From NCBI RefSeq assembly GCF_001888165.1, contig NZ_CP015455.1:558001-622000 (forward strand): 64,000 nucleotides of DNA, in the 5' to 3' direction. Positions 21,204 to 36,648 of the stretch are shown in pieces (position 1 is the stretch's first letter; each line of letters starts with the position of its first letter). The notes beneath the pieces were generated by a model. That model worked only from the letters and a program-made list of their open reading frames with translations. It did not search any database and was not told where the DNA came from. The position numbers were made by a program, and so were the translations under genes. This DNA is from Syntrophotalea acetylenica. Lineage in GTDB: Bacteria > Desulfobacterota > Desulfuromonadia > Desulfuromonadales > Syntrophotaleaceae.

Positions 21204-21229
21204 AAATAGCCAAATAATATAAAAATTAT
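21204..21229 (+). promoter_or_regulatory. ATAGCCAAAT box 1 (upstream of aor)
   Basis: First of seven copies of a 26-nt AT-rich box with invariant TAGCC followed by AAAT and an A-rich right half. A TTGAAA sits right after it at 21231-21236, but the only clear -10-like hexamer (TATAAG, 21251) is 14 bp away, so the promoter itself is uncertain. Confidence 0.65.
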
Positions 21230-21319
21230 CTTGAAATGTTTTCCGGAATGTATAAGGATCTGATTCAGGACTCCCCCGGTCACTAAACGTTCCCCCTCCC
21301 CTGAAGCTTCATACCGTTA

Positions 21320-21426
21320 TCGGTCTCCGAGCCCGTCACCCTAAAAGGGTGTACCTCAAGGATGGCGGGCCGGCAGGGTTTCGCTGGAAACGGCGGGGCC
21401 TCCCTTGTGGAAAGGAGATGCGTCGA
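21320..21426 (+). promoter_or_regulatory. Candidate molybdenum/tungsten cofactor (Moco/Tuco) riboswitch
   Basis: The aor leader holds a structured stretch: CTCCGAGCCCG, a CACCC/GGGTG hairpin (21337-21351), a GCCCG/CGGGC pairing (21331-21335 with 21366-21370), a further hairpin, and the 3' block GGGGCCTCCC...GGAAAGGAGA. These blocks resemble, from memory, the Moco RNA motif, which precedes molybdenum- or tungsten-cofactor genes. It ends about 40 nt before the aor ATG. No covariance search was possible. Confidence 0.5.
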
Positions 21427-21462
21427 AATTGCGCAAACTCATCGGAGTAAGGGAGAGAAATC

Positions 21463-23349
21463 ATGTTAGGTGGGTACTGGCAGAAAATCGCGGTAATCGA
21501 TTTGACCACGGAAACAGTGGAATATCTCAGGCCCAGTGAAGAAGACCTGAAAAAATTTATTGGCGGCAGCGGACTTGGCGCCAAGCTTCTGTACGAAAAC
21601 ACCAGGGCGGGTATCGATCCGCTGGGACCGGAAAATGTACTGATCTGCATGACCGGGCCGTACAACGGGACCAAGGTGGCTCAGGCGGGACGCTGGGAGC
21701 TGATTACCAAGGGACCCCTGACCGGCATTTACCTCGAATCCGACTGCGGGGGGAAATGGGGCGGCGCCCTTAAAGCCTGCGGCCTTGACGGTCTTATGGT
21801 CAAGGGCAAGGCCAAACAGCCAGTGTATATCACCATCGTCGACGACGATATCCAGATCAAAAAAGCCGACCAGCTGTGGGGTAAAGGCACCTTTGAAACC
21901 GACAGGCTTCTCAAGGAAGAGCTGGGCAAAGGTTCCCAGGCCATTTCCATCGGACAGGCCGGAGAAAAATTGGTCAAGATAGCCTCCATCATGACCGATG
22001 GTCGCGAGGGCCGCACCGCGGGGCGCGGCGGCGGCGGCGCCGTCATGGGTTCCAAAAATCTCAAGGCGATCGCTTGCAAGGGCAGCAAGAATGTCCCCAT
22101 TGCCAGGCCCGAGCCTTATGAAGAAATGATTCAGAAATTCCGCGAAAACTTCAAGGATGTCTACGATGGACCGCTTGGCACCTACGGTACATCCTGCGCC
22201 GTGGAAATTTTCAACGATGTCGGTGACCTGCCGATCAAGAACTGGCTGTGGGGCCATTGGGACAAGGCTGAAAAGGTTTCCGGCCAGCACCTGGCCAAGA
22301 CCATTCTCAAAAAGCGTTACCATTGCGGCAACTGCTTGATTGGTTGCGGCCGTACCGTGGAAATCCCTTCTGGTGCGTTCAAGATGGAGAAGGGGGGCGG
22401 TCCCGAATACGAAACCCTTGGCATGCTCGGTTCCAACTGTCTGATTGATGATGTGGAAGCCATCTCCAAGGGTGCGGAATTCTGCAACGATTATGGCATC
22501 GATACCATCTCCGCCTCCGCTCTCATCAGTTTCCTTATGGAAGCCTGGGAGCATGGCATGATCGACGAGAGCGACACGGATGGCCTGGAGATGACCTGGG
22601 GCAACGGCTTGGCCATGGTCGAGATGATCAGGAAGATCGCCCTGCGCGAAGGCATCGGGGATCCCTGCTCCCAGGGCATCCTGGAAGCCATCAAGCGGGT
22701 TGGCCCCGCCAGTGCGGAATTCGCCGTTCACGTCAAGGGCATGGACTTCCCCGCGCATGACCCCCGCGGCCGCGGCGGTCTCGGCGTTGCCTATGCCACC
22801 TCCAACCGGGGTGCCTGCCACATGCAGGCCTATAACCAGGACTTCGAGGGAGAAGGCTGCCTGAATATCGCGGACCTCGGCTACGACGCCCCGATGCCCC
22901 CCTATACCAATGAAGGAAAGGGCAAGTTCGTTGCCGACATGCAGAATTTCATGAGCATGATGGATTCGCTGAAACTCTGCAAATTCTCCGTGTTCGGCGG
23001 TATGACTGTCGGGCCCATGACGCAGTTTCTCAACCATATCGTCGGCTGGGACCTCACCAACGAGCAATGGATCGAGTGCGGCGAGCGGATTTTCAATATG
23101 AAACGTCTGTTCAACACCCGCGAGGGGGTCAGCCGCAAGGACGACACCCTGCCGCCGCGTATCCTTGCCAGCCCCCGCCAGGGCGGCTCCGGCGATTACG
23201 TGCCCGACCTGGGCTACCAGCTGCGGGATTACTACCGCGCCCGCAACTGGGACGAGTGGGGTATCCCCACTCCGGAAACCCTCAAGCGGCTCGGCCTTGA
23301 CCAGTATGATTACCGCAAGGGCAAGCGCACCACCGAAAATCAGCGCTGA
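21463..23349 (+). CDS. aor: Tungsten-type aldehyde:ferredoxin oxidoreductase
   Basis: A 628-aa AOR-family enzyme oxidising aldehydes to acids with ferredoxin as acceptor (or acids to aldehydes in reverse). It starts with GGYWQKIAVIDLTTE. It has the pterin-binding AGRGGGGAVMGSKNLKAIA motif near residue 190. The 4Fe-4S cysteines are at about 288, 291 and 295 (CGNCLIGC) and at about 506 (LCKFSVFGG). The downstream MoaD-like and ThiF-like genes point to cofactor supply. Upstream lie box 1 and a possible cofactor riboswitch. It is the first gene of the alcohol/aldehyde island. Confidence 0.95.
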   Translation: MLGGYWQKIAVIDLTTETVEYLRPSEEDLKKFIGGSGLGAKLLYENTRAGIDPLGPENVLICMTGPYNGTKVAQAGRWELITKGPLTGIYLESDCGGKWGGALKACGLDGLMVKGKAKQPVYITIVDDDIQIKKADQLWGKGTFETDRLLKEELGKGSQAISIGQAGEKLVKIASIMTDGREGRTAGRGGGGAVMGSKNLKAIACKGSKNVPIARPEPYEEMIQKFRENFKDVYDGPLGTYGTSCAVEIFNDVGDLPIKNWLWGHWDKAEKVSGQHLAKTILKKRYHCGNCLIGCGRTVEIPSGAFKMEKGGGPEYETLGMLGSNCLIDDVEAISKGAEFCNDYGIDTISASALISFLMEAWEHGMIDESDTDGLEMTWGNGLAMVEMIRKIALREGIGDPCSQGILEAIKRVGPASAEFAVHVKGMDFPAHDPRGRGGLGVAYATSNRGACHMQAYNQDFEGEGCLNIADLGYDAPMPPYTNEGKGKFVADMQNFMSMMDSLKLCKFSVFGGMTVGPMTQFLNHIVGWDLTNEQWIECGERIFNMKRLFNTREGVSRKDDTLPPRILASPRQGGSGDYVPDLGYQLRDYYRARNWDEWGIPTPETLKRLGLDQYDYRKGKRTTENQR

Positions 23350-23416
23350 ATCCTGGCGGGCCCCAGGGCGACAGGGCCCCTGGTAAAGATGTCGAGAACC
23401 GGAAAGGAAGAACATC

Positions 23417-23620
23417 ATGTCGATGTTTGTTATCAGCACCGACGCCATCCCTGAAGGGGAAACCATGTCGCTGGTCGCGTTGCTGCGAGCCCATGATCTG
23501 AGTCCCGCGACCGTCATGGTAAGGGTGGATGGGAAGGTGATTCAAAAGCAGCAGCTCGAAACCCTGCAGGTCGCCAGGGGGACAGCCGTCAAAGCATATC
23601 TTTTTGTTGGCGGCGGCTGA
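23417..23620 (+). CDS. MoaD/ThiS-like sulfur carrier
   Basis: A 67-aa beta-grasp protein ending in VGGG, the di-glycine tail needed for adenylation and thiocarboxylate formation. The VMVRVDGKVIQ strand and RGTAVKAYLFVGGG end fit the MoaD/ThiS superfamily. It lies 67 nt behind aor with a GGAAGG-type site, so it is probably co-transcribed. It likely supplies sulfur for the dithiolene of the tungstopterin in AOR (inference from context). The ThiF-like protein at 24066 is the expected activating partner. Confidence 0.8.
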   Translation: MSMFVISTDAIPEGETMSLVALLRAHDLSPATVMVRVDGKVIQKQQLETLQVARGTAVKAYLFVGGG

Positions 23621-23824
23621 TTCAGCGCCAGCGCCGCCATTTTGGCATTGGCGGTGAGAGTTTCTTGGTTTTGAAGCAAGGGGAGGGGATTTGCGAGATT
23701 TCATGCCCCTTGCCTCCTTGGCGAAGGTGTTGCCCCGTGCGCATCTTCGCCACTTTTTTATCAAACGCCTGCAAAACGTACTCTTGTCGAAGCGGCATCA
23801 AGGAGGCGACTTTTTTTATCTGAG
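23621..23824. other. Intergenic stretch with a hairpin, no gene seen
   Basis: An imperfect stem CCGCCA/TGGCGG (23633-23654) followed by a T-rich stretch may end the aor-moaD transcript. Small frames here lack ribosome sites. Together with the promoter and leader that follow, the space between the carrier and ThiF-like genes is 445 nt. Confidence 0.4.
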
Positions 23825-23879
23825 AAATAGCCATATATTTGAAATATTCATTGACACGCGACGCGAGGCCGTTTATGCT
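23825..23879 (+). promoter_or_regulatory. ATAGCC box 2 and promoter of the thiF-like gene
   Basis: The box (23825-23850) starts AAATAGCCATATATTTG and directly abuts a near-ideal promoter: TTGACA at 23851-23856, 17-bp spacer, TATGCT at 23874-23879. The distance from box start to -35 is 26 nt, the same as at adh2. Confidence 0.75.
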
Positions 23880-23917
23880 GTTTTCACAACGGGTAAAAGA
23901 TCTTTCTTTGTGTTGCT

Positions 23918-23949
23918 CCATCATGGCCCGTTGCGGCGGGCTATGATGG
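23918..23949 (+). other. Leader hairpin before the thiF-like gene
   Basis: A 13-bp stem with one G-T wobble (CCATCATGGCCCG at 23918-23930 with CGGGCTATGATGG at 23937-23949) lies about 30 nt into the transcript predicted from the box-2 promoter. It has no T-run, so it looks like a leader structure and not a terminator. Confidence 0.5.
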
Positions 23950-24065
23950 AGATTTGTTGCATGGCGGCAGAGCAGGCACGTTTTGTCTCTGAGGCCGTGC
24001 ATCGGCCAGGAAGGACGTTGTCCCCGGCTGTAGCGCCAAAATAGTGTATTCCCCTTTTTGATGAC

Positions 24066-24716
24066 GTGTCCGGAAAGGTCAGGCTGTTGCATCGGGATCT
24101 TCAGGAAAAAGAATTTTTTTCCAGGCATGCCCTGGGGGTAGTGCCGGTGTTAAAAAAAGCCACCGTCGGGGTTGCCGGCGCCGGCGGGCTGGGATCAAAT
24201 ATCGCCGTTGCCCTGGCCCGCTCAGGAGTCGGCAAGCTGGTGGTCGCCGATTATGACCGGGTTGAACCGCACAATCTCAACCGTCAATATTATTTTCGCG
24301 ATCAGATAGGCATGTACAAGGTTGACGCACTGAAAAGCAACCTGGAGCGCGTCAATCCGTTTTCAGAATATGAAATGCACAACAGGCTCCTCGACAAAGA
24401 GAACATCCCGCGGATTTTCGGTAATGTCGATATCCTGCTGGAAGCTCTGGACAGCGTTGATGCCAAGCTCATGCTTCTGCAGAGCTGGATTGCTGCCTTT
24501 CCGCAGCAACCGCTGGTGATGGGCAGCGGCATGGGAGGGTATGGCGGCAATAACGGTATGGTGTCGAAACGGCTGTTTGACAAGGTTTATGTCTGTGGTG
24601 ATGAAAAAACCGATGTGGCCGTCTTCCCGCCGATGGCGCCGAAAGTCATGATCGTGGCGGCCATGCAGGCCAACATGGCGCTGGAATGGCTGCTCGATGG
24701 CGAGGTGATAGTCTGA
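24066..24716 (+). CDS. ThiF/MoeB/HesA-like adenylyltransferase
   Basis: A 216-aa E1-like enzyme of the small ThiF type. The nucleotide-binding motif GVAGAGGLGSNIAVALARSG is at about residues 35-54, followed by DYDRVEPHNLNRQYYF with the typical D and R/N residues. The zinc-binding cysteine pairs of MoeB are missing, as in many short ThiF proteins. It should adenylate the C-terminal GG of the MoaD/ThiS-like carrier encoded upstream. The GTG at 24066 is the best start but has no strong ribosome site; a TTG at 24087 is an alternative. It has its own box-2 promoter. Confidence 0.83.
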   Translation: MSGKVRLLHRDLQEKEFFSRHALGVVPVLKKATVGVAGAGGLGSNIAVALARSGVGKLVVADYDRVEPHNLNRQYYFRDQIGMYKVDALKSNLERVNPFSEYEMHNRLLDKENIPRIFGNVDILLEALDSVDAKLMLLQSWIAAFPQQPLVMGSGMGGYGGNNGMVSKRLFDKVYVCGDEKTDVAVFPPMAPKVMIVAAMQANMALEWLLDGEVIV

Positions 24717-24778
24717 ATTCGATGCGCAAGGGCAATGGTAGAGAGGGAAGCGCAGGCCGAAAGGCCATGCTTTCTCTC

Positions 24779-25005: not shown

Positions 25006-26247
25006 CTACCAGACGAAAAAGGTGCCGACCGTGAACAGTTCGGTATTCTGATCCTCGTTGTCGAACCAGGAGTTTTCCGTCAGCATGACTTCCGCCATGA
25101 CCTTGAGGTTGGGGTTGATGTCGTGGTAGACGCCAAATACCCACAGGGTCTGTTCTTCAATCTGAACCTCGGTGCCGGCGAGGCGATCCGCCTTGTCCCT
25201 CGAGGTTTCATCCATGTAGTTGCCGCCGTAGCTCACTCCGAATTTGGTTTTGCCGAAACGGTTGTCGAAGCCGTACATCAACTGGGCGATAAAGCCCTGG
25301 CTGTCCCGTTCCTTGCCCGCGGCATCCAGCGCGTCCGTGTCCAGCATGAGAACCGAGCCGATGGCCGTATTGTCGAAGCCTGACAACACCAGATCGAAGC
25401 CCCGATAAAGAATCTGCACTCCGCCGGCAATGCCGCTGGCTTCCACAGTACCGTCAAAGCCGCTGCCGGAGGAAAATTCGGCTTCCTGCCATACGCCGGA
25501 CAGCCAGGCTTTGAATGAACCGCCCTCGAAGGTGCCGGCATAGGACAATTCCCCTTCGAAGCGAGGCAGCTTGGTTTCCTCCGCTTTTGCCGTGGCGCCG
25601 GCAATGACGCTCGGGTCATAAAGTCCCAACGACACCTTGACACCATTATAGGCCGGCGACGTATAGCGGATCTGCGCATTGAATTGCGGATAAACGTAAC
25701 CGTAGCCGATGCGGCCCAGAGGCGTACCGCCTCCGTCGAGCGCGCCCTGGGCGCCATACCCCCAGACGGTCATGTCCGTCAAAAGGTTTTGTCCCTGGAA
25801 TTGGCTGAGGGTTTTTCCGACCAGCATCTGTCCGAAGTTGCCATCGACGGTAAAAAAGATTTCACGCAGATCGATCTGATTGCCGAAAGAGTTTTTCGAC
25901 TTGCCGACGTCCTTGGCATCGTAGGTCGGGTAGAACCCGATGCGAGCCGCCATGTCGAGTCCTCCGATGGTTGGCGCCTTGATGTTGAAAGCGATAATTC
26001 CGGGTACCAGGCCGATACGTTCCCGGTAGCCTTCCTGGTCGTCAACAATGGTGCCGCCTCGGCGGATTCCAGTGCCGAAACCGGGTTTGGCGTCCCCGGT
26101 TTCATAGGCGGCAAACATGTTTACCAGGCCGTCGGTGCTGAAGGACCAGCCATTGTCCGTACCGATGACAACGGCCGCATGAGCGGGTGTGCCGTACAGA
26201 ATAAATCCGGCCACCAGACTGCACAGCAGAAGTGACATTCTTTTCAT
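25006..26247 (-). CDS. Outer-membrane beta-barrel porin
   Basis: A 413-aa exported protein. The signal peptide MKRMSLLLCSLVAGFILYG...AHA is cleaved near residue 24. The rest alternates polar and hydrophobic residues as in a beta barrel and ends with an aromatic residue (GTFFVW), the outer-membrane insertion signal. The start at 26247 has a GGAGGT ribosome site; a longer open frame to 26577 has none. Its place in the alcohol island suggests uptake of small substrates, but it is transcribed towards the thiF-like gene and no box lies directly at its start. Confidence 0.8.
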   Translation of the reverse strand: MKRMSLLLCSLVAGFILYGTPAHAAVVIGTDNGWSFSTDGLVNMFAAYETGDAKPGFGTGIRRGGTIVDDQEGYRERIGLVPGIIAFNIKAPTIGGLDMAARIGFYPTYDAKDVGKSKNSFGNQIDLREIFFTVDGNFGQMLVGKTLSQFQGQNLLTDMTVWGYGAQGALDGGGTPLGRIGYGYVYPQFNAQIRYTSPAYNGVKVSLGLYDPSVIAGATAKAEETKLPRFEGELSYAGTFEGGSFKAWLSGVWQEAEFSSGSGFDGTVEASGIAGGVQILYRGFDLVLSGFDNTAIGSVLMLDTDALDAAGKERDSQGFIAQLMYGFDNRFGKTKFGVSYGGNYMDETSRDKADRLAGTEVQIEEQTLWVFGVYHDINPNLKVMAEVMLTENSWFDNEDQNTELFTVGTFFVW

Positions 26248-26638
26248 TTCCAACCTCCAGAAAGAATCAAAAACAGGGATCAAGACGGGCTTTGCGGGCT
26301 TTCGCCGGGTTGTAACCCAGCGGCCGCAAAAACATTGGAAAGCAGGGAATAGAACGGTGTTGCGCGGGGGTAAGGCAAAGATATCGATTTCAATGGACCC
26401 GGTCAAGAAAAAATCATATATATGGTCAATTATGACGGGTTTCAGGTTTTGGATGTTTCGGTCATGCTGGAGTTCTTTATCCTTGTCATACTGGCGGTCT
26501 GGCCAGGACTGCATGCCTGGCGGGGTGCCCTGCAAAATCCGCGGAAAGGCGCAGTTTCCCTTTAACGGTGATGGCAAACGCCGTTTAAAAATAAAAAAAT
26601 TAGCTTTAAAACCATAACAAAAACAGCGGCTTTTAAAT
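26248..26638. other. AT-rich regulatory region before porin and adh1
   Basis: No supported gene. Contains runs of A/T and the likely promoter region of the minus-strand porin gene; I could not pick a clear -35/-10 pair for it. The boxes of adh1 begin at 26639. Confidence 0.4.
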
Positions 26639-26694
26639 AAATAGCCAAATCATTCAAAAATTTGGTTGAAATAGCGTTTGTCTTATTGTATGTA
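26639..26694 (+). promoter_or_regulatory. ATAGCCAAAT box 3 and promoter of adh1
   Basis: Box 26639-26664 (AAATAGCCAAATCATTCAAA core; CCAAAT...ATTTGG is an inverted repeat) abuts TTGAAA at 26666-26671. A TATGTA -10 follows at 26689-26694 after 17 bp. Confidence 0.7.
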
Positions 26695-26798: not shown

Positions 26799-26824
26799 AA
26801 ATAGCCAAATATTCAAAATATTAC
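26799..26824 (+). promoter_or_regulatory. ATAGCCAAAT box 4 (second adh1 box)
   Basis: AAATAGCCAAATATTCAAA core, 160 nt downstream of box 3 and 150 nt before the adh1 ATG. It overlaps the possible -10 of a TTGACG (26786) element instead of lying upstream of a -35, so its effect may differ from that of box 3. Confidence 0.65.
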
Positions 26825-26974: not shown

Positions 26975-28126
26975 ATGGCTGACTTTTTGTGTCCCAGCGT
27001 AAACTTTATTGGTAGGGGTACGGTTGCCGAGGTTGGTCCCAGGGCTGCCATGTTTGGCACCAAGGCACTGATTGTTTGTGATGGTTTTCTTGCAAAGCTC
27101 GAGGGTGGTCCGGTTGCCAAGGTAAAAGACGCCTTGACTTCCTCCGGGATCAAATTTGCTGTTTATGACGGCGTCGAGCCTAACCCCAAAGACACCAATG
27201 TCGCTGCAGGCCTGAAGGTTTACAAGGCTGAGAATTGCGACATGATCGTTACGGTTGGTGGCGGCAGCTCCCATGATTGCGGAAAAGGCATCGGTATTTC
27301 CGCAACACATGACGGAGATCTTTACGAAAACTATGCGGGAATCGAACTGCTGACCAACGAACTGCCTCCCATTATCTCTGTCAATACGACAGCCGGTACG
27401 GCCAGTGAGGTTACACGTCACTGCGTTATTACCAACACGGCCAAGAAGGTCAAGTTTGTTATTGTCAGCTGGCGTAACCTGCCGAAGGTTTCCATCAACG
27501 ATCCTGAGCTGATGGTGGCCAAGCCTGCCGGGCTTACCGCAGCCACCGGCATGGATGCCTTGACCCACGCTGTGGAATGCTACGTGACCAAGGATGCCAA
27601 TCCGGCGACCGATGCCGTTGCAATTCACTCTGTCAAACTTATCGGCAAGTACCTGCGCCGGGCTGTTGCCAATGGTGCGGATATCGAGGCTCGTGAAGGT
27701 ATGGCTTACGGATCGTTGCTGGCCGGCATGGCGTTCAACAATGCCGGCCTCGGTTATGTCCATGCCATGGCGCATCAATTGGGTGGCCTGCTCGACATGC
27801 CTCATGGCATTGCCAATGCCGTACTGTTGCCGCACGTCGAGCGTTACAACCTGATGGTCAATCCCGAGAAATTTGCGGATATCGCTGTGGCGCTCGGGGA
27901 AAATATCGACGGCCTCGGCAAAATGGAAGCCGCCGAAAAAGCGATCGATGCCATTGTGCGCCTGTCCAAGGATGTTGGCATTCCTCAGGGGCTGTCGCAA
28001 CTGGGTGTCAAGGAGTCCGATATCGAGCCGATGGCCAAGCTGGCCATGCAGGACGGTAACGCCGGAACCAATCCGCGTGTCGGCAAATTGGAAGACATCA
28101 TCCAGCTGTTTAAAAACGCCATGTAG
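26975..28126 (+). CDS. adh1: Iron-containing alcohol dehydrogenase 1
   Basis: A 383-aa group III alcohol dehydrogenase (NAD-dependent, Fe-activated). Present are the GGGSSHDCGKGIG nucleotide motif near residue 96, TTAGTASEVTRH, the metal site MDALTHAVECY and HAMAHQLGG...PHGIANA with the Fe-binding histidines. It interconverts alcohols and aldehydes; ethanol or a diol-derived alcohol is likely here. The ATG at 26975 has AGGAGG 5 nt upstream. Two ATAGCCAAAT boxes precede it. A strong terminator follows, yet the membrane, DUF190 and CMD-like genes downstream may be partly read through. Confidence 0.95.
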   Translation: MADFLCPSVNFIGRGTVAEVGPRAAMFGTKALIVCDGFLAKLEGGPVAKVKDALTSSGIKFAVYDGVEPNPKDTNVAAGLKVYKAENCDMIVTVGGGSSHDCGKGIGISATHDGDLYENYAGIELLTNELPPIISVNTTAGTASEVTRHCVITNTAKKVKFVIVSWRNLPKVSINDPELMVAKPAGLTAATGMDALTHAVECYVTKDANPATDAVAIHSVKLIGKYLRRAVANGADIEAREGMAYGSLLAGMAFNNAGLGYVHAMAHQLGGLLDMPHGIANAVLLPHVERYNLMVNPEKFADIAVALGENIDGLGKMEAAEKAIDAIVRLSKDVGIPQGLSQLGVKESDIEPMAKLAMQDGNAGTNPRVGKLEDIIQLFKNAM

Positions 28127-28291: not shown

Positions 28292-29283
28292 ATGGAAGCC
28301 TGGAGCGTTAATGCGATCTTGCTGGCTTTTGGCGGAGGCATGTTTGGCGCCAGCCTCGGCGCCCTGTGGTCTTTCTGCCTTTGCGGTTTGTTAACCATGC
28401 TGGGCTGTCTGGTCGTGCTGGGCGGAGGCAGTGATTTTCTGTTGCTGCAGGTCGGCCTGGGGCCGATTTTCGGTCCCCACACCGGAGGGTTCGTAGCCGG
28501 GGTGGTCGCTGCAACCTATGCGGCAGCCTTGAGAAAGAACCATCCTTCGGGGGCCGCCAAGGACATTCTGTCGCCTCTGGTCGATACATCCTGGGATGTA
28601 CTGGTTGTCGGGGGCTTTCAGCCGTTTTCGGTCTGCTTATTGTTCCGTTGTTGGGCAGAGTTCCCCTGATTAGGGAATTTGATCTGCTGGCCCTGTCCAT
28701 CTGCATCAACATCTGGCTGGCCCGGCTGTTGTTCCAGAAAGAAATGCCCTGGGGCAACATGGATTCCATACGTCAACACGGCTGGCTGGGAACCGACGGC
28801 TATGCCATTTCATGGGTCGGGTGGATGTCGCCTCCGTCGCGCCTGCTTGCCATAGGCGCCGGGATGGGTTTGCTGTCCGGCGGTGTGGCCATGGGGTTCC
28901 GTGAGTATCTGGCACCGCTGGCCGCACAGGGAATGGTCAGTGAATCGGCGGCGTTTGTGGCGCCACTGATCTTCTGCTGGGGGTTCTCGGCCGTGATGCT
29001 GACCATGCTCAATTTCGGACAGGCCACCATCCAGAAAGCTCCCGTTACGCACTGCATGGCCATCATGGGGGCCTGGGGATACCTGCAGAGCGGCTCGCTG
29101 GTTGTGGCCATGGTTTTTGGCATCGGCGGCGCCTTCATCGAAGAATTGACGGCCCGCATGTTCTACAACCATGGCAGCAACCATCTCGATCCCCCCGCTG
29201 CGGGGATTGCCCTGTCGACATTTGTCATGAATATTTTGTTCAAACCCGAGTTTTTGAATCTTGGCGGATTTTTTAATTTTTAA
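28292..29283 (+). pseudogene. Multi-pass membrane protein, frameshifted
   Basis: Frame one (28292-28669) starts MEAWSVNAILLAFGGGMFG with a GGGGAGGA site and has several hydrophobic helices; it breaks after DVLVVGG. Frame two continues as LSAVFGLLIVPLLGRVPLI and on to 29283 with six or so further helices. One more G in the run of five at 28610-28614 restores a protein of about 330 aa. It looks like a permease-type protein of unknown family. The DUF190 gene follows 56 nt later, suggesting a small-molecule transporter with a PII-like regulator. Confidence 0.75.
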
Positions 29284-29339: not shown

Positions 29340-29678
29340 ATGGGCTCCGAAGGCAAAAACCAGCTGTTGCGCATCTATCTTAATGAGACCAGGCGCTATG
29401 GCGATAAACTTCTGTATGATGCCATTGTGGAAACAGCCTATCAGCACGGATTGGCCGGAAGCATGGTATTCAGGGGGATAGAAGGTTCCGGTTTCTGCTG
29501 TAAGGTATGCAGAACCCAGGCTCCGGGTTTGACGCTGTCAAAATGTCAGCCGATGGTGATTGAATTCATCGGCGCTGAAGAGAAGATGAAGGTCCTGATT
29601 CCCCGTCTCAAGGAGATGATCACCGCAGGCGCCATGGTCGTGCTGGATGCTGAGATTGTGCATAATGTCTGCGAATAG
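29340..29678 (+). CDS. DUF190 PII-like protein
   Basis: A 112-aa protein of the DUF190 family, which has the PII/ferredoxin-like fold. LLRIYLNETRRYGDKLLYDAIVE and GLAGSMVFRGIEGSG are the family hallmarks. Unusually, the segment that normally reads like GxxxRIHT here carries cysteines (FCCKVCRTQ), three within five residues, which could bind metal or sense redox state. A GGAGG ribosome site precedes the ATG. It is placed right after the membrane protein. Confidence 0.8.
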   Translation: MGSEGKNQLLRIYLNETRRYGDKLLYDAIVETAYQHGLAGSMVFRGIEGSGFCCKVCRTQAPGLTLSKCQPMVIEFIGAEEKMKVLIPRLKEMITAGAMVVLDAEIVHNVCE

Positions 29679-29946
29679 AACTGCGGAGGGCGGATCCTCT
29701 ATCTCGCCACCAAGGCATGGGGGCAGCGCAGCCTCTGCCGTATCCATCAAGGCGCGTTCCAAACCCTGCGTGCTGAAACACTTCAGGGGGGCACTCGATG
29801 CCGGCGCCACGGTGCAGGAACTGGCATACATTCTGGCTCTGGTCATGCGTGAGGCAGCCGGAGCGGACGATTGCTGGACGCATGATGTTTTGTCGGACTG
29901 GCAGGAAATTGTCGCGGGCAATATGGCCTGCGGATGCCCGGCATAA
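29665..29946 (+). CDS. Carboxymuconolactone decarboxylase/AhpD-like protein
   Basis: A frame of about 93 aa with AVSIKARSKPCVLKHFRGALDAGATVQELAYIL resembling the CMD/AhpD core. Only one cysteine of the usual CxxC is present at this site (KPC), with others at DDCW and the C-terminal CGC. The start is uncertain: the ATG at 29665 lies inside the DUF190 end and has no good ribosome site, and the N-terminal part before ASAVSIKA looks unlike the family. The segment could be slightly out of frame upstream. Confidence 0.55.
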   Translation: MSANRTAEGGSSISPPRHGGSAASAVSIKARSKPCVLKHFRGALDAGATVQELAYILALVMREAAGADDCWTHDVLSDWQEIVAGNMACGCPA

Positions 29947-30090: not shown

Positions 30091-30145
30091 AAATAGCCAA
30101 ATATTTGATTTTTTGATTGACGGCGGACGGGGGATCGGGTAAACA
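30091..30145 (+). promoter_or_regulatory. ATAGCCAAAT box 5 and promoter of adh2
   Basis: Box 30091-30116 (AAATAGCCAAATATTTGATT, with the perfect palindrome CAAATATTTG) abuts TTGACG at 30117-30122; TAAACA follows at 30140-30145 after 17 bp. Box-to-promoter spacing equals that at the thiF-like gene. Confidence 0.75.
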
Positions 30146-30233: not shown

Positions 30234-31397
30234 ATGATTTCCTCTCGACCATTTCGCGTTCCGCCCACCATCCATTTTGGCGAACAAGCCACCGCTCGTA
30301 CCGGTGAAGAAGTCAAGCGGCTCGGAGCCCGCAAAGCCTTGCTCGTTACCGATGCGGTGCTGGCCAAGGTTGGGGCCATCGATCCAATTGTCGACTCGCT
30401 TAAAAACCACGGTGTGGATGTAGTGGTTTTTGATGAGGTAAATTGTGAACCGGTGTTGCGTCATGTCAATGAAGGCCTGGCATTGCTGGAGGAAAAACAG
30501 TGCGATGTGCTGGTTGCCTGCGGCGGCGGCAGTCCGATCGATGCGGCCAAGGCCATTGGCATCATGGCGACCAATCAGGGGCAGATCAAGGATTACATGG
30601 GGCTGGATAAGTTCAAGACCGCCGGCGTACCGGTGATTGCCGTGCCGACGACTGCGGGGACCGGCAGCGAAGCGACCATGTTCAGCATCATCACCGATAC
30701 GGACAACGACGTTAAGATGCTCATCGGCAGCCCTTTGTTGATGCCGAAGGTCGCTATCGTCGATCCGCTCATGACCCTCAAGCTCCCCCGTGGGCTGACC
30801 GCGGCGACCGGTCTGGACGCTCTCACCCATGCCATCGAGGCCTATGTGTCGTTGAAGGCACAGCCGATGACGGATGTGCTGGCCATTTCCGCCATCAAGC
30901 TGATCAGCACCTACCTGCCTCTTGCCTGGGGCAGCCCGGATAATCGCGAGGCCCGCGCCAACACCATGCTGGGCGCCCTGCAGGCAGGGATCGCTTTTTC
31001 CAATGCGTCGGTAGCCCTGGTGCATGGCATGTCACGGCCTATCGGCGCCAATTTCCATATTGCGCACGGCGTGTCCAATGCCGTGCTGCTGGGTATCATT
31101 ATGGATTTTTCTCTGTCGGGTAATCCCGGGCGCTATGCGGATATCGCCAGGGCCATGGGGGTCGGCAACGGCGGCCAGGATGCCATGGGTGTGGCCAAGG
31201 CAGGCGCCGAGAAAGTCAAGGGCCTGATCAAAATGCTTGAAGTGCCGTCTCTTACCGCGCTTGGCGTGACACGGGAGAAGCTTGAGCCGGTGGTGAAAAA
31301 AATGGCGGAAGATGCTCTGGCCAGCGGCAGCCCGGGAAATAATCCGCGGCAGGCGACGGCCGAGGAGATCGTAAATCTGTATTACGCGGCGCTGTGA
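30234..31397 (+). CDS. adh2: Iron-containing alcohol dehydrogenase 2
   Basis: A 387-aa group III alcohol dehydrogenase, clearly different from adh1 in sequence. It has ACGGGSPIDAAKAIG near residue 98, PTTAGTGSEAT, the metal-site LDALTHAIEAY, and VHGMSRPIGANFHIAHGVSNAV. The AGGAGG site before ATG 30234 sets the start; an upstream in-frame codon at 30201 lies in a leader hairpin. It carries its own box and promoter. Having two enzymes with separate copies of the box suggests different substrates or directions under common control. Confidence 0.95.
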   Translation: MISSRPFRVPPTIHFGEQATARTGEEVKRLGARKALLVTDAVLAKVGAIDPIVDSLKNHGVDVVVFDEVNCEPVLRHVNEGLALLEEKQCDVLVACGGGSPIDAAKAIGIMATNQGQIKDYMGLDKFKTAGVPVIAVPTTAGTGSEATMFSIITDTDNDVKMLIGSPLLMPKVAIVDPLMTLKLPRGLTAATGLDALTHAIEAYVSLKAQPMTDVLAISAIKLISTYLPLAWGSPDNREARANTMLGALQAGIAFSNASVALVHGMSRPIGANFHIAHGVSNAVLLGIIMDFSLSGNPGRYADIARAMGVGNGGQDAMGVAKAGAEKVKGLIKMLEVPSLTALGVTREKLEPVVKKMAEDALASGSPGNNPRQATAEEIVNLYYAAL

Positions 31398-31414: not shown

Positions 31415-31440
31415 AAATAGCCAAACATTCAAATATCATA
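31415..31440 (+). promoter_or_regulatory. ATAGCCAAAC box 6 (upstream of aldehyde dehydrogenase)
   Basis: AAATAGCCAAACATTCAAAT core, starting 18 nt after the adh2 stop. A weak -35 (TTTAAA, 31441-31446) follows at the same 26-nt distance as elsewhere; no clear -10 is seen. Confidence 0.65.
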
Positions 31441-31526
31441 TTTAAAAAGCGGCTGAGCTGTTCGAAGATGTTTGTGGAAGGGATTCGCGGCGCAGCGGCA
31501 AAATCACACAATCGAAGGAGACTGTC

Positions 31527-33074
31527 ATGGGTGAAGCAAAAGAACTGGTGCCGGAAATAAAGCGTTTGAAATACTGCATCAACAACGAGTGGGTGACATC
31601 TAAAACCGATAAATACATGGCGGTGATGAACCCCAGCACCGGCGAGCAAATTGCCGAAACGCCCTGCTGTACGGCCGTGGAGGTCGAGGCAGCGGTGCAG
31701 GCCGCCAAGGCGGCTTTCCCGGAGTGGTCAGCGAAGCCGGCCGCTATCCGCACCCAGGTACTCTTTGCGTTCCGCGACCTGGTCAACAGCCACTTCGAGG
31801 AACTGGCGCTGATCCTTGCCACGGAAATGGGCAAGAACCTGAATGAAGCGCGAGGCGATGTGCACAAGGTTGTCGAGGCTTGCGAAGTGGCTGTTGCGGC
31901 GCCCCTGGAAATGCAGGGACATTCGACCATGGAGGTGACCCGCGGCCACGACACGGTGCTGTATCGGGAATCCGTTGGTGTTTTTCTCGGGATTGCCCCT
32001 TACAACTTCCCGGCGATGATCCCCTTTGGATGGTTTATTCCCCTGGCCATTGCAGCCGGCAATACGGTGGTGCTCAAGTCCGCCAGTCTGGTTCCCATGA
32101 CCAGTATGCGCCTGCTGGAGCTGCTGATCGAGGCCGGTCTGCCCAAGGGAGTCGTCAATCTGATCACCTGCAGCCGCAACGAGCTGACGGATTTGCTGTC
32201 GCATCCGGACATTCGCGGAATTTCCTTTGTCGGCAGCACATCTGTTGGCCTGAAGATCTATTCGACAGGGGCTGCTGCCGGTAAGCGGGTGCAGGCCCTG
32301 ACGGAAGCCAAGAACCACTCTCTGATTCTGCGTGACGCGGCTCTGGACTGGTCTGCCCGGAGGCTCATCAATTCGGCATTCGGTTGCGCCGGCCAGCGTT
32401 GCATGGCTCTGCCGGTGGTGGTTGTAGAAGAGTGCATTGCCGATGAGTTTGTTGGCCTGCTGAAAAAATACGCCCAACAGCTGAAGATGGGCCCTGCCTA
32501 CGAAGAGACCACACAGCTTGGCCCCCTGGTCAGTGCCGGGCAGAAAAAATTTGTCATCGACATGATCAACAAAGGGGTCGAAGAAGGCGCCACGCTGGTG
32601 CTTGATGGCCGGGACGCGGTTGTCGAGGGATGCGAAAAGGGCTATTTCGTCGGTCCTACCATCTTCGACCATGTCAAGAAAGATATGGTTATCGGTGATC
32701 AGGAAATCTTCGGACCGGTGGTTTGCGTCAAGCGGGTCAAGGATTTCGAGGAAGGCATAGCGGTCATGAATGCCAATGAGTTTGCCAACGGCTCATCCAT
32801 CTTTACCCGCAGCGGTTATTATTCCAGGGAATTCGCTCGCCGCACCGACGGCGGCATGGTGGGTATCAACGTGGGAATTCCGGTGCCTCTGGCATTCTTC
32901 CCCTTCTCCGGTCACAAGCGTTCCTTTTTTGGCGATTTGCACTGCCTCGGGCGGGACGGGCTCAAATTCTATACCCAGACCAAATCGGTGACCACCAAAT
33001 GGGTATCCCCGGAGGAGGCTGGCGAACAGGATAAGGTTTCGACCTGGGAAGGTACCATCAACCGGGAACTCTAG
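31527..33074 (+). CDS. MmsA-type CoA-acylating aldehyde dehydrogenase
   Basis: A 515-aa member of the aldehyde dehydrogenase superfamily. The catalytic cysteine is in the NSAFGCAGQRCMAL motif near residue 290. The tail GINVGIPVPLAFFPFSGHKRSFFG is diagnostic of the methylmalonate-semialdehyde dehydrogenase (MmsA) branch, which makes acyl-CoA. The usual family glutamate in the ELGGKN motif is replaced (EAKNH), as in MmsA. In this setting it probably converts acetaldehyde or another aldehyde to its CoA ester; no valine-degradation genes are near. A GGAG site precedes the ATG. Confidence 0.88.
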   Translation: MGEAKELVPEIKRLKYCINNEWVTSKTDKYMAVMNPSTGEQIAETPCCTAVEVEAAVQAAKAAFPEWSAKPAAIRTQVLFAFRDLVNSHFEELALILATEMGKNLNEARGDVHKVVEACEVAVAAPLEMQGHSTMEVTRGHDTVLYRESVGVFLGIAPYNFPAMIPFGWFIPLAIAAGNTVVLKSASLVPMTSMRLLELLIEAGLPKGVVNLITCSRNELTDLLSHPDIRGISFVGSTSVGLKIYSTGAAAGKRVQALTEAKNHSLILRDAALDWSARRLINSAFGCAGQRCMALPVVVVEECIADEFVGLLKKYAQQLKMGPAYEETTQLGPLVSAGQKKFVIDMINKGVEEGATLVLDGRDAVVEGCEKGYFVGPTIFDHVKKDMVIGDQEIFGPVVCVKRVKDFEEGIAVMNANEFANGSSIFTRSGYYSREFARRTDGGMVGINVGIPVPLAFFPFSGHKRSFFGDLHCLGRDGLKFYTQTKSVTTKWVSPEEAGEQDKVSTWEGTINREL

Positions 33075-33144: not shown

Positions 33145-33173
33145 GGGCCTGAAACCCGGTAAGGAGCTGCGCG

Positions 33174-33341
33174 ATGATTCCTTGCAGATTGATCGATCCC
33201 CTGACCAAGACCATTATTGTCCTCGAGGGCTTGTCTGGCAGGCCGCTGGCGGAAATATGTGAGGAATACAACATAAGGGAAGAACATTATACGGTCTGGA
33301 GAAAATATTTTTTGGCCAACGCTCCGAAAATCTTCGAATAA
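33174..33341 (+). CDS. Small 55-aa helix-turn-helix-like protein
   Basis: A short gene with a GGAG ribosome site. The protein reads like a homeodomain-type HTH of transposase/IS3-like regulators: LSGRPLAEICEEYNIREEHYTVWRKYFL, that is, helix, turn, recognition helix with W. No transposase partner or inverted repeats are near, so it is probably a stand-alone small DNA-binding protein or a relic. It sits between the aldehyde dehydrogenase and nfnA in the same direction. Confidence 0.65.
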   Translation: MIPCRLIDPLTKTIIVLEGLSGRPLAEICEEYNIREEHYTVWRKYFLANAPKIFE

Positions 33342-33482
33342 ATCGGCAATTCAAGAAATGTATCTGCCGTTGGCTCTGCAAAAACAGGCTTTGCAGAACG
33401 GAATTTTGGCCTAGCCATTCAACGGGTTTTTGCGAAGGCCTCGTTTCTCAAGACCTTGAAACTGAAGGATGCAGGTAACTCT

Positions 33483-34340
33483 ATGTTTGAAGTACTCAGC
33501 AACGATATTCTGGCGCCGAATGTCCATCGCATGGTGATCCGCGCGCCGCGGATCGCCAGGGTTCGGAAACCCGGACAATTCGTGATTGTGCGCGTCGAGG
33601 AAGGCGGAGAGCGGATTCCACTGACCATTGGCGACGCGGACATTGCGAAGGGCACCATTACCCTGTTTATCCAGGCCGTGGGGCTGACGTCCTTAAAGCT
33701 CGTCGGCACGCCGGTTGGCAATCACCTCAGGGATGTGGCCGGGCCTTTGGGACAGCCGACGCATATACGCAAATGGGGACGCGTGGTCTGTATCGGAGGC
33801 GGGCTTGGCACCGCGGTGCTTTATCCCATGGCCAGGGCTTTGCCGGCGGCCGGCAATGAAGTAACCACGATAATCGGCGGTCGCTCCGCGCCCTTCATTA
33901 TCCTGGAACAGGAGCTTTCCGTTTTTTCCAGACAGGTGCTGGTAACCACCGAGGATGGCAGTCTTGGCCGCAAGGGGTTTGTCACCGATGCCCTGCGGGA
34001 ATTGATCGACGATCCGCAGCGGTGCCCGCAGGCGGTGATCGCCATCGGTCCGGTACCGATGATGCGGGCCGTGGCGGAACTGACCCGGCCATACGGCATT
34101 GAGACCATTGTCAGCCTCAACCCGATCATGATCGACGGCACCGGCATGTGCGGCGGCTGCCGGGTCGTGGTCGGAGGGGAAACCCGTTTTGCCTGTGTTG
34201 ATGGCCCCGAATTTGATGGCCATCTGGTGGACTTCGATCTGTTGAGTAATCGGCTGGCCATGTATCGCGAAGATGAATGCAGAATGCTGGAGCAGCTCCC
34301 CGATGAACTGCGTGCCAGGATCGTTCAGGTAAAAAGGTGA
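33483..34340 (+). CDS. nfnA: NfnA/SudB-like FAD-NAD(P) reductase subunit
   Basis: A 285-aa ferredoxin-NADP reductase-like subunit. The FAD domain has KPGQFVIVRVEEGGERIPLTI, the NAD domain has VVCIGGGLGTAVLYP, and the C-terminal [2Fe-2S] motif is MCGGCRVVVGGETRFACVDG. With nfnB it should form the electron-bifurcating NADH-dependent reduced ferredoxin:NADP oxidoreductase. The ATG at 33483 fits the family start; a longer frame begins at 33456. It stands 17 nt before nfnB. Confidence 0.88.
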   Translation: MFEVLSNDILAPNVHRMVIRAPRIARVRKPGQFVIVRVEEGGERIPLTIGDADIAKGTITLFIQAVGLTSLKLVGTPVGNHLRDVAGPLGQPTHIRKWGRVVCIGGGLGTAVLYPMARALPAAGNEVTTIIGGRSAPFIILEQELSVFSRQVLVTTEDGSLGRKGFVTDALRELIDDPQRCPQAVIAIGPVPMMRAVAELTRPYGIETIVSLNPIMIDGTGMCGGCRVVVGGETRFACVDGPEFDGHLVDFDLLSNRLAMYREDECRMLEQLPDELRARIVQVKR

Positions 34341-34357
34341 GGGGGGAGGATATCCGG

Positions 34358-35758
34358 ATGAAGTTTTCCATGGAGCCACAAGTCAAAATGGCGCGGGTGA
34401 GAATGCCCGAGCAGGATCCGCAGGTGCGCAGGTGCAATTTCAAAGAAGTCAATCTGGGGCTTTCCGAGGCTGAGGCGGTGCAGGAGGCGCAACGCTGTCT
34501 TGGCTGTAAAACCAGGCCCTGCGTGGCCGGTTGTCCGGTACGGGTCAGAATCCCGGAATTCATTACCGCCCTGGCTTGCGGCAACGTTGCGCAGGCGGCA
34601 CACATTCTCCTGGCTGACAACTCTTTGCCTGCGGTATGCGGCCGCGTCTGTCCCCAGGAGGAACAGTGCGAGGCCAAATGTGTCCTTGGCAAGAAAGGTG
34701 AACCCGTAGCTATCGGCTATCTGGAGCGTTTTGTGGCCGATTGGGCTATGCGGCATCCGGACTTGCTGGAGCCTGAAACGGCCGTTGCCCCAACCGGAAA
34801 AACCGTTGCCGTGGTCGGCTGCGGCCCAGCCGGCATTACCGTCTCCAAGGAACTGGCATGCAAGGGGCATGACGTTACCATATTCGAGGCTTTGCACGAC
34901 ACCGGCGGTGTTTTGCGCTATGGCATTCCGGAATTCCGTCTGCCGAAGCAGATCGTGGATATCGAAGTGCAGCGTTTGCGGCATATGGGTGTCAGTATCG
35001 AATGCAATGTCATTGTCGGCAAGACCGTAAGTCTCGAAGAATTGCAGACGGGTTACGATGCCGTGTTTATCGGCAACGGCGCGGGGCTGCCGACCATGCT
35101 CGGCATTCCCGGAGAGAATCTTAAAGGCGTCTATTCGGCCAACGAATATCTCACGCGCGTCAATCTGATGGCAGCCTGGCGTGATGATGCGGCCACTCCG
35201 ATCATGCGGGGTAAAAGGGTGATGGTGATAGGCGGCGGGAATACCGCCATGGACGCGGTTCGCACCGGGGCAAGACTTGGCGCGGAACGTTCAATTATCG
35301 TTTACCGCCGCAGTGAAGCGGAAATGCCGGCCCGCGTGGAGGAAATCCACCATGCCAAACAGGAAGGCATCGAATTTATCCTGCTGACAGCACCGCTTGA
35401 AATTATCGGCGACGCATCGGGGTGGGTAAAAGGGGTTCGCTGCCAGAAAATGAAACTTGGCGAGCCGGATGCTTCGGGACGCCGCCGGCCGGTTCCCGTC
35501 GCAGGACAGACCTTCGAACTTGCGGTGGACGTGGTGGTCAACGCGGTCGGCACCCAGGCCAATCCCTTGCTGACGGCGACGGCTTCTCAGCTTGAGCTTA
35601 ACAAATGGGGGAATATAGTCGCAGATGACAGCGGTGCGACCAGCCTGCAGGGCGTGTTTGCCGGCGGCGATATTGTGCGCGGCGGAGCCACTGTGATTCT
35701 GGCGATGGGTGACGGTAAAAGGTCCGCTGCCGCCATCGATGATTATCTCAGGCGTTGA
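34358..35758 (+). CDS. nfnB: NfnB/GltD-like flavoprotein subunit
   Basis: A 466-aa protein of the glutamate synthase small-subunit/NfnB family. It has an N-terminal 2[4Fe-4S] domain (RCLGCKTRPCVAGCPV and CGRVCPQEEQCEAKC). An FAD-binding VAVVGCGPAGITVSKEL follows near residue 150, and an NAD(P) motif VMVIGGGNTAMDAVRTG near residue 290. Together with nfnA this balances reduced ferredoxin from AOR, NADH from alcohol dehydrogenases and NADPH. No glutamate synthase large subunit is nearby, which favours Nfn. GGAGGA precedes the ATG. Confidence 0.9.
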   Translation: MKFSMEPQVKMARVRMPEQDPQVRRCNFKEVNLGLSEAEAVQEAQRCLGCKTRPCVAGCPVRVRIPEFITALACGNVAQAAHILLADNSLPAVCGRVCPQEEQCEAKCVLGKKGEPVAIGYLERFVADWAMRHPDLLEPETAVAPTGKTVAVVGCGPAGITVSKELACKGHDVTIFEALHDTGGVLRYGIPEFRLPKQIVDIEVQRLRHMGVSIECNVIVGKTVSLEELQTGYDAVFIGNGAGLPTMLGIPGENLKGVYSANEYLTRVNLMAAWRDDAATPIMRGKRVMVIGGGNTAMDAVRTGARLGAERSIIVYRRSEAEMPARVEEIHHAKQEGIEFILLTAPLEIIGDASGWVKGVRCQKMKLGEPDASGRRRPVPVAGQTFELAVDVVVNAVGTQANPLLTATASQLELNKWGNIVADDSGATSLQGVFAGGDIVRGGATVILAMGDGKRSAAAIDDYLRR

Positions 35759-35805
35759 TGACCACCGCGGAATTTCCATGGAACCGCGGCACAAAGGCAC
35801 AAACA

Positions 35806-35838
35806 GGAAAGGGCGAAGCCTCAGGCTTCGCCCTTTCT
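35806..35838. terminator. Terminator between nfnB and the GntR gene
   Basis: Stem GAAAGGGCGAAGCC/GGCTTCGCCCTTTC with a 3-nt loop. A second hairpin (CCGCGG...CCGCGG) lies at 35763-35790. It serves both convergent genes. Confidence 0.8.
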
Positions 35839-35857
35839 TTCAGGAATTTTTTTATCG

Positions 35858-36598
35858 TCAGACGGCCTGTTTGATCTTGGCCTGTTTCTCGTCCCTTTCC
35901 CGCAGGGCTTCCAGCTCTCTCTCGACATCGCAGATGTGCGCCAGCATACACTCCTGCGCCTTGTCTCCGTCACCGGCCTTGATGGCTTCGAAGATTTTCT
36001 GATGCGAATCCAGTACGTGCTGCGAAAATTCCATATCCGGCTTGATGTTGGTCTTGAGGTCGGTGAGCATGCTGTTGACAAAATCGAGAACCATCACCAT
36101 GACCGGATTGCGGCTGGCCTGCGCCAGGAAAATGTGAAAATCGATTTCCTCTTTGGCGCCCACGACGCTTTTCTTTTTTTCAAAAATTTTCCGGCATTTC
36201 CGGTCGATTTCCTCCAGTTTTTCAATTTCCTGGGCGCTGAACCGCTCCGCCGCGAGTCGCGCAAGGTATGGCTCCATGATTTTTCGGATTTCCGACAGGT
36301 CCCGCACGGAAACATTCTGAAAATGAAGAAAGTTGGCGATGCTATCGCGGGTCGTTTCCATATCGACCTCGCTGACCACCGGCCCGCCGCCGGCGCCGCG
36401 CTTGATTTCAATGAAGCCCATGGCTTCCAGGCTGCGCAGCGCCTCACGCAGGGTATGCTTGCTGACGCCAAATTGGGTGATCAAGTCCTTTTCAGGCGGC
36501 AGGCTTTGCCCGGGCAGAAGCTGTCCTTTCAGGATGGCTTCCCTGACCTGACGGATGATATGGGTGGACATCTTGTCATGACTTGCGGAATGAAACAT
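35858..36598 (-). CDS. FadR-type GntR transcriptional regulator
   Basis: A 246-aa regulator. The GntR winged HTH (HIIRQVREAILKGQLLPGQS, EKDLITQFGVSKHTLREALRSL) is at residues 12-75 and an all-helical FCD ligand domain is at about 95-225. FCD proteins bind small acids such as lactate, pyruvate or acyl compounds through a metal. It lies at the right end of the alcohol island. An ATAGCCAAAT box is located 25-50 nt upstream of its start, so it probably regulates itself and the box-bearing genes. The GAGGT site 6 nt before ATG 36598 sets the start. Confidence 0.9.
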   Translation of the reverse strand: MFHSASHDKMSTHIIRQVREAILKGQLLPGQSLPPEKDLITQFGVSKHTLREALRSLEAMGFIEIKRGAGGGPVVSEVDMETTRDSIANFLHFQNVSVRDLSEIRKIMEPYLARLAAERFSAQEIEKLEEIDRKCRKIFEKKKSVVGAKEEIDFHIFLAQASRNPVMVMVLDFVNSMLTDLKTNIKPDMEFSQHVLDSHQKIFEAIKAGDGDKAQECMLAHICDVERELEALRERDEKQAKIKQAV

Positions 36599-36622
36599 AC
36601 TGACCTCGACATGGTGACATTT

Positions 36623-36648
36623 ATATAGCCAAATAGTTTAAAGATTCG
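36623..36648. promoter_or_regulatory. ATAGCCAAAT box 7 (upstream of the GntR gene)
   Basis: ATATAGCCAAATAGTTTAAA core, in opposite orientation to the regulator gene and only 25 nt from its start codon. This suits autorepression by blocking its promoter or leader. No clear -35/-10 pair could be chosen here. Confidence 0.65.

Follow-up and report, generated by a model that had tools for sequence, protein, structure and literature searches.

A box with operator-like features and a GntR/FCD regulator in a putative 1,3-propanediol/3-hydroxypropionate regulon of Syntrophotalea acetylenica

This work concerns an A+T-rich box that recurs in a 64-kb stretch of the Syntrophotalea acetylenica chromosome (the window; NZ_CP015455.1, positions 558,001 to 622,000) in front of genes for an aldehyde:ferredoxin oxidoreductase (AOR), two alcohol dehydrogenases, an aldehyde dehydrogenase and a GntR/FCD transcription regulator. 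The 24-nt consensus of this box, AAATAGCCAAAYATTTNAAAWATT, is probably the operator of a 1,3-propanediol regulon contained in a single gene cluster, and the GntR/FCD protein encoded in the cluster would bind it, acting as an activator at the target promoters and as a repressor of its own gene. The box is restricted to the cluster, is conserved among relatives, stands at a fixed distance from -35-like hexamers and co-occurs with the regulator gene, and a riboswitch match lies between it and aor. We infer the identity of the binding protein, the direction of control, the effector and the substrates of the enzymes.

Copies of the box in the window and in the genome

All seven boxes reported in the initial annotation were located, each on the + strand: upstream of aor (21204..21229), upstream of the thiF-like gene (23825..23850), at the distal (26639..26664) and proximal (26799..26824) sites of adh1, upstream of adh2 (30091..30116), between adh2 and the MmsA-type gene (31415..31440), and just downstream of the regulator's own promoter (36623..36648). 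The window contains the exact 12-mer AWATAGCCAWAY seven times, whereas 500 dinucleotide shuffles yielded it 0.024 times on average and never more than once. A loose 10-mer scan with up to two mismatches gave 36 matches in the window against 46.8 expected and was not above chance, so the significance of the finding rests on the exact core together with its tail. The box had been described as 26 nt long; a 24-nt core stands, but the last two positions are nearly uninformative (0.08 and 0.02 bits).

The whole 3.2-Mb genome contains 11 exact copies of AWATAGCCAWAY, seven of them in the window, and the reversed-pattern control gave four. Of the four copies elsewhere in the genome, one is at the 3' end of an infC-like gene, two are within open reading frames (ORFs) and one is upstream of a helix-turn-helix-type ORF (the gene names at these four places being assigned by eye); none is accompanied by the A+T-rich remainder of the box. 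When up to three mismatches to the 24-nt pattern were allowed, the genome gave six matches, all within the cluster, the copy at 31415 escaping that pattern; by the genome scans the box is not scattered.

A matrix built from 46 sites of other genomes ranked the seven known copies 1 to 7 in the window. The eighth rank (23.3 bits, against a maximum of 17.6 in 30 random windows) fell to a degenerate copy on the - strand (26406..26431), which had been missed when no clear copy was seen elsewhere in the window. TTGACC stands 25 nt from the start of this eighth box, ahead of the divergent porin gene. Boxes also occur at the equivalent place before the porin genes in five relatives (G004, G005, G006, G008 and G009; these are our genome handles). 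A frame at 36700-36975 (+) was considered as a further box target and rejected, since it overlies a gene of the opposite strand and has no family match.

The box and the regulator in related genomes

Among the 136 genomes of the order, the 24-nt pattern with up to two mismatches matched in eight (G000, G004, G005, G006, G008, G009, G011 and G012), all of them within one family of 14 genomes, and in none of the other 128, and the reversed pattern gave one match across the 136 genomes, in G065. The three-mismatch matches in G002 and G003 (one each) and in G006:C60, as well as the weak match ATAGACATACAATAAAAACAT in G013, look like chance and were set aside before counting. In all eight genomes the mapped boxes fall within the homologous gene cluster.

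Orthologs of the regulator with at least 69% identity were found in G000, G004, G005, G006, G008, G009 (a partial copy at a contig end), G010 and G011, and no further ortholog was found among the 136 genomes at an E value of 1e-50; the next-best matches, in a set of 58 genomes, were 32–34% identical. Box and regulator ortholog are thus both carried by seven genomes, and the two that do not agree are fragmented, incomplete assemblies: G010 (89% complete) has the regulator and no pattern box, with a weak box-like site (16.3) at the regulator gene, and G012 (67% complete) has boxes, its regulator not being found. No clear case emerged of a relative keeping the boxes without the regulator, seven of the eight box genomes having the ortholog and the eighth being the incomplete G012. 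The genomes with an AOR ortholog of at least 78% identity are precisely the seven with box and regulator, and so box, regulator and cluster travel together, which is not in itself a demonstration of binding.

Architecture of the box and its distance from the promoters

For a description of the box, 57 sites were gathered by matrix from nine genomes, the regulator sites among them; within this set the sequence upstream of the regulator is identical in G008 and G010, and the G006 regulator site (15.5) lies outside it, below the collection threshold. Columns 7-9 and 11 (C, C, A, A) of these matrix-chosen sites are invariant or almost so, with counts of 56/57, 57/57 and 57/57 for C7, C8 and A9 of the CCA core.

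The distance to a -35 element, which played no part in the selection of sites, was analysed for 50 of the 57, leaving aside the six regulator sites and one scoring under 20. A TTGACA-like hexamer (at least five of six letters) stands 25-27 nt from the box start in 29 of the 50 sites (14 at 26, 10 at 27 and five at 25 nt), compared with a mean of 0.31 sites per offset at other offsets; by a hand count made without a control, 21 of these 29 have at least four of the six letters of TATAAT at the best of the 16–18 bp spacings. If the -35 elements are as predicted, the 24-nt box spans about -62 to -38. At most targets the GntR/FCD protein would then sit at about these positions against the TTGACA-like -35 and activate the sigma-70 RNA polymerase, and the earlier suggestion that a position just upstream of -35 suits an activator is supported by the 29 sites.

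In the window itself, the annotation had placed a -35 at 26 or 27 nt for five sites. Four of them have it with at least five of six letters, namely 21204 (TTGAAA, 27 nt from the box start), 23825 (TTGACA-N17-TATGCT), 26639 (TTGAAA-N17-TATGTA) and 30091 (TTGACG-N17-TAAACA), but at 31415 the -35 is poor, with only the weak TTTAAA/TTAAAA. The three -10 hexamers described as good are present after 17 bp, yet only 4, 3 and 3 of their six letters, respectively, match TATAAT.

UP elements lie at about -62 to -38, and the box, being A+T-rich and occupying this very interval, could in principle be a UP-element-like stimulator of RNA polymerase that needs no dedicated protein. We regard this as very improbable. 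A UP element alone would not explain the nearly invariant CCA core of the matrix-chosen sites, which such an element does not need, and the box is confined to one cluster in its own genome and also occurs away from -35 elements.

The proximal adh1 box is not followed by a -35, likewise in the orthologs compared. At the proximal adh1 and mmsA sites the box is conserved, in contrast to the -35 region (0.34 and 0.31 identity, respectively, five genomes each). In five genomes the mmsA boxes start 112-117 nt from the start codon. These -35-poor boxes may mark activator-dependent promoters with a poor -35, or sites of other use. Separately, a short inverted repeat was noticed by eye after the mmsA box of some relatives (regions compared: window 31440-31527 and L037 10617-10706), for example TGCCGACA...TTGTCGGCA in G005, and may be a terminator or a processing site between cistrons.

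Repression is the role of most characterised GntR proteins, which favours an explanation in which the GntR/FCD protein binds the box purely as a repressor of all targets and is relieved by substrate. The 16 of 50 sites with a poor -35 (fewer than four of six letters) and the site past the regulator promoter would fit such a block, and many of the -35 elements are good (TTGACA, TTGACC, TTGACT), so that activation is not obviously required. Pure repression is nevertheless unlikely in our estimation, since 29 of the 50 sites lie upstream of, and not over, the -35 at a fixed 25-27 nt, which is the usual place of an activator, and CitO, the citrate activator of Enterococcus faecalis and a protein of the same family, activates from such a position, protecting -41 to -65 and -51 to -74 (PMC4746285). 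A box placed as the CitO operator is, upstream of and adjoining the -35, was found at the same 29 of 50 sites.

The regulator and its own promoter

The regulator gene (35858..36598, -) encodes the proposed box-binding protein, which combines an N-terminal GntR winged helix-turn-helix (PF00392, 65.3 bits, cut-off 27) with a C-terminal FCD domain (PF07729, 89.5 bits, cut-off 24.3). Its C-terminal half is helical in the structure model, and the PDB matches shown are GntR-superfamily proteins, most of them of the FCD/FadR type; the model was used as family support alone, the 50 matches shown having TM scores by query length of 0.37-0.51 and root-mean-square deviations of 8-15 Å. The protein had been called FadR-type, which is right in that it is a GntR/FCD protein, but it is not FadR itself: the FadR equivalog models were not passed (36.6 bits against a cut-off of 189, and 36.5 against 249.2), and the cut-offs of the NanR, PdhR and LldR models were not reached either.

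In a phmmer alignment, residues E151, H155, H199 and H221 fall on the D/H/H/H metal site of 2di3, and the three His are metal ligands of LldR (PMC4746285). A metal-bound carboxylate ligand in the FCD pocket is plausible because of this alignment; the inducer would probably be a metabolite of the pathway, and a hydroxycarboxylate such as 3-hydroxypropionate (3-HP) in a metal-containing pocket is our guess for the effector. The six full-length orthologs aligned all share the recognition segment VSKHTLREALR, and paralogs with 31-33% identity read VSRPSVREAIM instead; a private recognition segment of this kind is consistent with a private operator.

The predicted promoter of the regulator gene, TTGATT-N17-TATTCT (36661..36689, -), has the same architecture in G004 and G005. 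A pattern TTG[A/C]TT-N17-TAT[T/C][C/T]T with the box just downstream is found in G000 (TTGATT/TATTCT), G004 (TTGCTT/TATTCT) and G005 (TTGATT/TATCTT), the hexamers being 17 nt apart in each; the contig of G011 stops short of this promoter. Box 7 (36623) of the window starts 13 nt after the -10 of the regulator promoter (36661-36666 to 36648) and points away from the regulator gene. Judged from the predicted promoter, its position is the place of a repressor, in agreement with the earlier proposal of autorepression: at its own gene the protein would sit just past the -10 and the predicted start and repress.

The same position bears on the alternative that another, unlinked transcription factor, for instance of the AraC or LysR type, has the box as its operator, with the GntR/FCD gene merely one of its targets. 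AraC-type sites can be asymmetric, as the box is, and a box before the regulator gene also fits a plain target gene. In addition, the known 3-HP-responsive activators of mmsA are LysR-type proteins (PMC6441110, PMC4617489). We consider an unlinked factor distinctly unlikely, given that a box downstream of the regulator promoter suits autorepression and not activation by a third party, that the presence of the regulator tracks that of the box, and that the GntR/FCD gene is the sole transcription-regulator gene recognised among the annotated genes of the cluster, no other regulator being recognised among the conserved mapped genes as far as the partial ORF annotation extends.

GntR dimers usually bind palindromes. 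The annotation had stated that the motif is not the TGGT-N-ACCA site, and this holds: the consensus does not contain that palindrome and is mostly asymmetric. Such a site is usual in the FCD family without being a strict mark of it, and the comparison presupposes that the protein binds the box. Over centres from 8 to 20.5 the best mean complementarity was 0.53 over eight pairs (centre 17), followed by 0.49 (16.5), 0.45 (8.5) and 0.44 (12.5), so that the box as a clean palindrome is unconvincing, and the copies that come closest to a palindrome (CCATATATTTGG at the G006 regulator and G006 adh2, CCAAATATTTGG at G008 adh2) are exceptional.

This asymmetry is what speaks most against a simple GntR dimer site, and several other observations weigh in the same direction, against the GntR/FCD protein as activator at the targets and repressor at its own gene. 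As many as 16 of the 50 sites do not have even a 4/6 match to a -35, including 6/6 proximal adh1 and 4/5 mmsA boxes, and activation at a standard promoter thus does not account for every copy. The regulator sites of G006, G008 and G010 are weak (15.5-16.3), have the opposite orientation and lie at or just past the -10 region. The co-occurrence of box and regulator is inseparable from inheritance of the whole cluster, and the conservation of the box (0.84, against 0.31-0.40 in the upstream flanks) is inflated by the choice of sites through the matrix. The ORFs of the clusters were annotated in part, a diguanylate-cyclase-like gene (named by eye) stands beside the regulator in G004, and the structure model, with a mean pLDDT of 79.8, adds little beyond the family.

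Genes of the cluster and the predicted pathway

The genes of the cluster begin with that of AOR, of the tungsten type by homology (21463..23349, +), followed by a gene for a small MoaD/ThiS-like protein (23417..23620, +), which is conserved beside AOR, has no Pfam match and was named by inspection, and by one for a ThiF-type adenylyltransferase (24066..24716, +). The porin-like protein divergent from adh1 (25006..26247, -) has no Pfam or NCBIfam match and was named after the published Pcar_2512 at the same place. Then come ADH1 (26975..28126, +), a 383-aa iron-type alcohol dehydrogenase (Fe-ADH) resembling 1,3-propanediol dehydrogenase; a frameshifted multi-transmembrane gene (28292..29283, +) whose channel-like role is taken from PMC3543383; a DUF190 protein (29340..29678, +); a small CMD/AhpD-like protein (29647..29946, +), the L037 ortholog of which matches PF02627; ADH2 (30234..31397, +), an Fe-ADH and candidate 3-hydroxypropionate dehydrogenase, again after PMC3543383; a coenzyme A (CoA)-acylating (methyl)malonate-semialdehyde dehydrogenase (MMSDH; 31527..33074, +); and two genes for NAD(P)/ferredoxin electron transfer (33456..35758, +; 33456-34340 and 34337-35758), which we take to be of the Nfn/Sud type.

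The best PDB match of ADH1 is the 1,3-propanediol oxidoreductase 3bfj (E 8e-168), and the aldehyde dehydrogenase scores 520.8 bits with the model for CoA-acylating MMSDH, above its cut-off of 448.5. G004, which is presumably Pelobacter carbinolicus (a single contig of 3,665,893 bases), has the order hydrogenase, SfrB-like, MMSDH, ADH2, CMD, DUF190, channel, ADH1, divergent porin, ThiF, MoaD-like, AOR and radical SAM, in agreement with the named genes of the interval from Pcar_2502 to Pcar_2515 in P. carbinolicus (PMC3543383). For that organism Pcar_2510, Pcar_2506 and Pcar_2505 were proposed as 1,3-propanediol, 3-hydroxypropanoate and 3-oxopropanoate dehydrogenases, respectively, and the step from 3-hydroxypropanal to 3-hydroxypropionate was ascribed to a non-specific action of acetaldehyde dehydrogenase, phosphate acetyltransferase and acetate kinase isozymes (PMC3543383). 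Given the ADH1 match, the MMSDH model and the published gene order, a generic alcohol regulon was rejected: the alcohol/aldehyde regulon of the annotation stands as one regulon, but its genes are not a generic set, and it appears, from homology of the enzymes, to be better named a 1,3-propanediol/3-hydroxypropionate regulon. It would oxidise 1,3-propanediol, and probably also glycerol-derived 3-hydroxypropanal, via 3-hydroxypropionate and malonate semialdehyde to acetyl-CoA. Six further Fe-ADH paralogs with up to 56% identity to ADH1 are encoded in the genome, none of them in the box cluster, and similar paralogs are found in box-less genomes as well.

Between the box and aor lies an aptamer of the molybdenum cofactor (Moco)/tungsten-cofactor riboswitch family RF01055 (21313..21431, +; 74.9 bits, gathering threshold 36). 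Six further aor leaders match the family at 64.7-77.5 bits (L034, L035, L038, L042, L116 and L118), so that the riboswitch is present in all seven leaders examined, and the box stands upstream of it in six of the seven genomes, that is, in all whose contig reaches far enough; the G011 contig ends 85 nt beyond the riboswitch, with no box within that stretch. Riboswitches have been predicted for three other aor genes (PMC3543383). The aor transcript would be gated a second time, by the riboswitch. A wider scheme, possible but doubtful in our view, is that an FCD activator with an asymmetric operator of a new class controls the whole anaerobic 1,3-propanediol pathway and senses 3-hydroxypropionate or another intermediate, with AOR under an AND-gate of substrate-dependent start and riboswitch-dependent continuation, and that AOR is a 3-hydroxypropanal:ferredoxin oxidoreductase supplying low-potential electrons for the release of hydrogen or formate.

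Relation to known systems

The likeness to CitO lies in an FCD regulator encoded with its catabolic genes, in upstream promoter binding with activation, proposed here from the position of the box, and in a metal in the FCD pocket, predicted here from the aligned pocket residues (PMC4746285). The two differ in pathway and organism, and whereas site O1 of CitO lies upstream of its own operon, box 7 lies downstream of the regulator promoter (PMC4746285). MmsR of Pseudomonas denitrificans likewise is linked to a methylmalonate-semialdehyde dehydrogenase gene, which it activates in a 3-HP-dependent manner (PMC6441110, PMC4617489), but it belongs to the LysR family, unlike the GntR/FCD protein in these relatives of the anaerobic Pelobacter. 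LldR/CGL2915 (2di3), NanR (6on4) and PdhR share with the regulator both their domains and, as judged from sequence and model, their fold, and the metal-site His residues of 2di3 align with those of the regulator; in contrast, the metal-site Asp of 2di3 aligns with Glu, the operator here is not TGGT-N-ACCA, and the regulator stays below the cut-offs of their models.

The closest counterpart is the glycerol/1,3-propanediol oxidation cluster Pcar_2502-Pcar_2515 of P. carbinolicus, which matches G004 in the kinds of genes and in their order (PMC3543383). The window differs from it in having Nfn-type genes in place of the hydrogenase and SfrB-like genes and in its broken channel frame, and the accessible text of PMC3543383 names no regulator or box for the cluster. 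The enzyme cluster is already published, and an FCD protein activating from upstream of -35 is a known arrangement; as far as word searches show, the operator, its regulon and the likely regulator are new. No paper naming the box was found by these searches, which were by word and not by sequence, and the repeat may already be among the multicopy sequences of PMC3543383 (Table S1, Figure S1), so the box is not claimed to be unpublished.

The shared operator puts AOR, its MoaD/ThiF-like neighbours and a second aldehyde dehydrogenase, which in G005, G006 and G008 lies in the cluster with its own box, into one regulon, and thereby gives testable candidates for the step from 3-hydroxypropanal to 3-hydroxypropionate. 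Should the regulator respond to 3-hydroxypropionate, it would differ in type from the LysR sensors described for this platform chemical. Moreover, the box is a ready marker of the pathway in uncultured relatives.

Additional observations

The cluster varies among its carriers. In G011, the second aldehyde dehydrogenase (L118 1-900) is a 98-residue match at a contig end, which does not agree with a whole gene there, with two boxes upstream. A radical SAM-like gene of G004 (named by eye, at the place of Pcar_2515; L034 9071-10522, -) has its own box, and no radical SAM gene was found at the equivalent place in the window. The electron-transfer genes by the regulator are of the Nfn/Sud type in G000 and G006 and consist of SfrB-like and [FeFe]-hydrogenase genes in G004, G005, G008 and G011 (window 33456-35758 compared with L033 11360-15266); by gene content, the putative electron outlet is swapped inside one conserved regulon. 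The channel gene is a single 329-aa frame in relatives; here a one-base difference next to a G run interrupts it, which points to a pseudogene, a site of frameshifting or an error in the assembly.

About 8 kb from the regulator, the window encodes a glycerol-dehydratase-like glycyl radical enzyme (44578-46998; TIGR01774, 874 bits; best PDB match 1r8w) with its activase, the two together spanning 44578-48118. It was rejected as a box target, there being no box upstream and the nearest matrix match reaching 8.7; the genome has four matches to the TIGR01774-type family, three of them above the cut-off. A NarL-type response regulator and a histidine kinase (48809-51836) adjoin the glycerol dehydratase genes, and it is possible that this pair provides a separate control of the glycerol dehydratase step.

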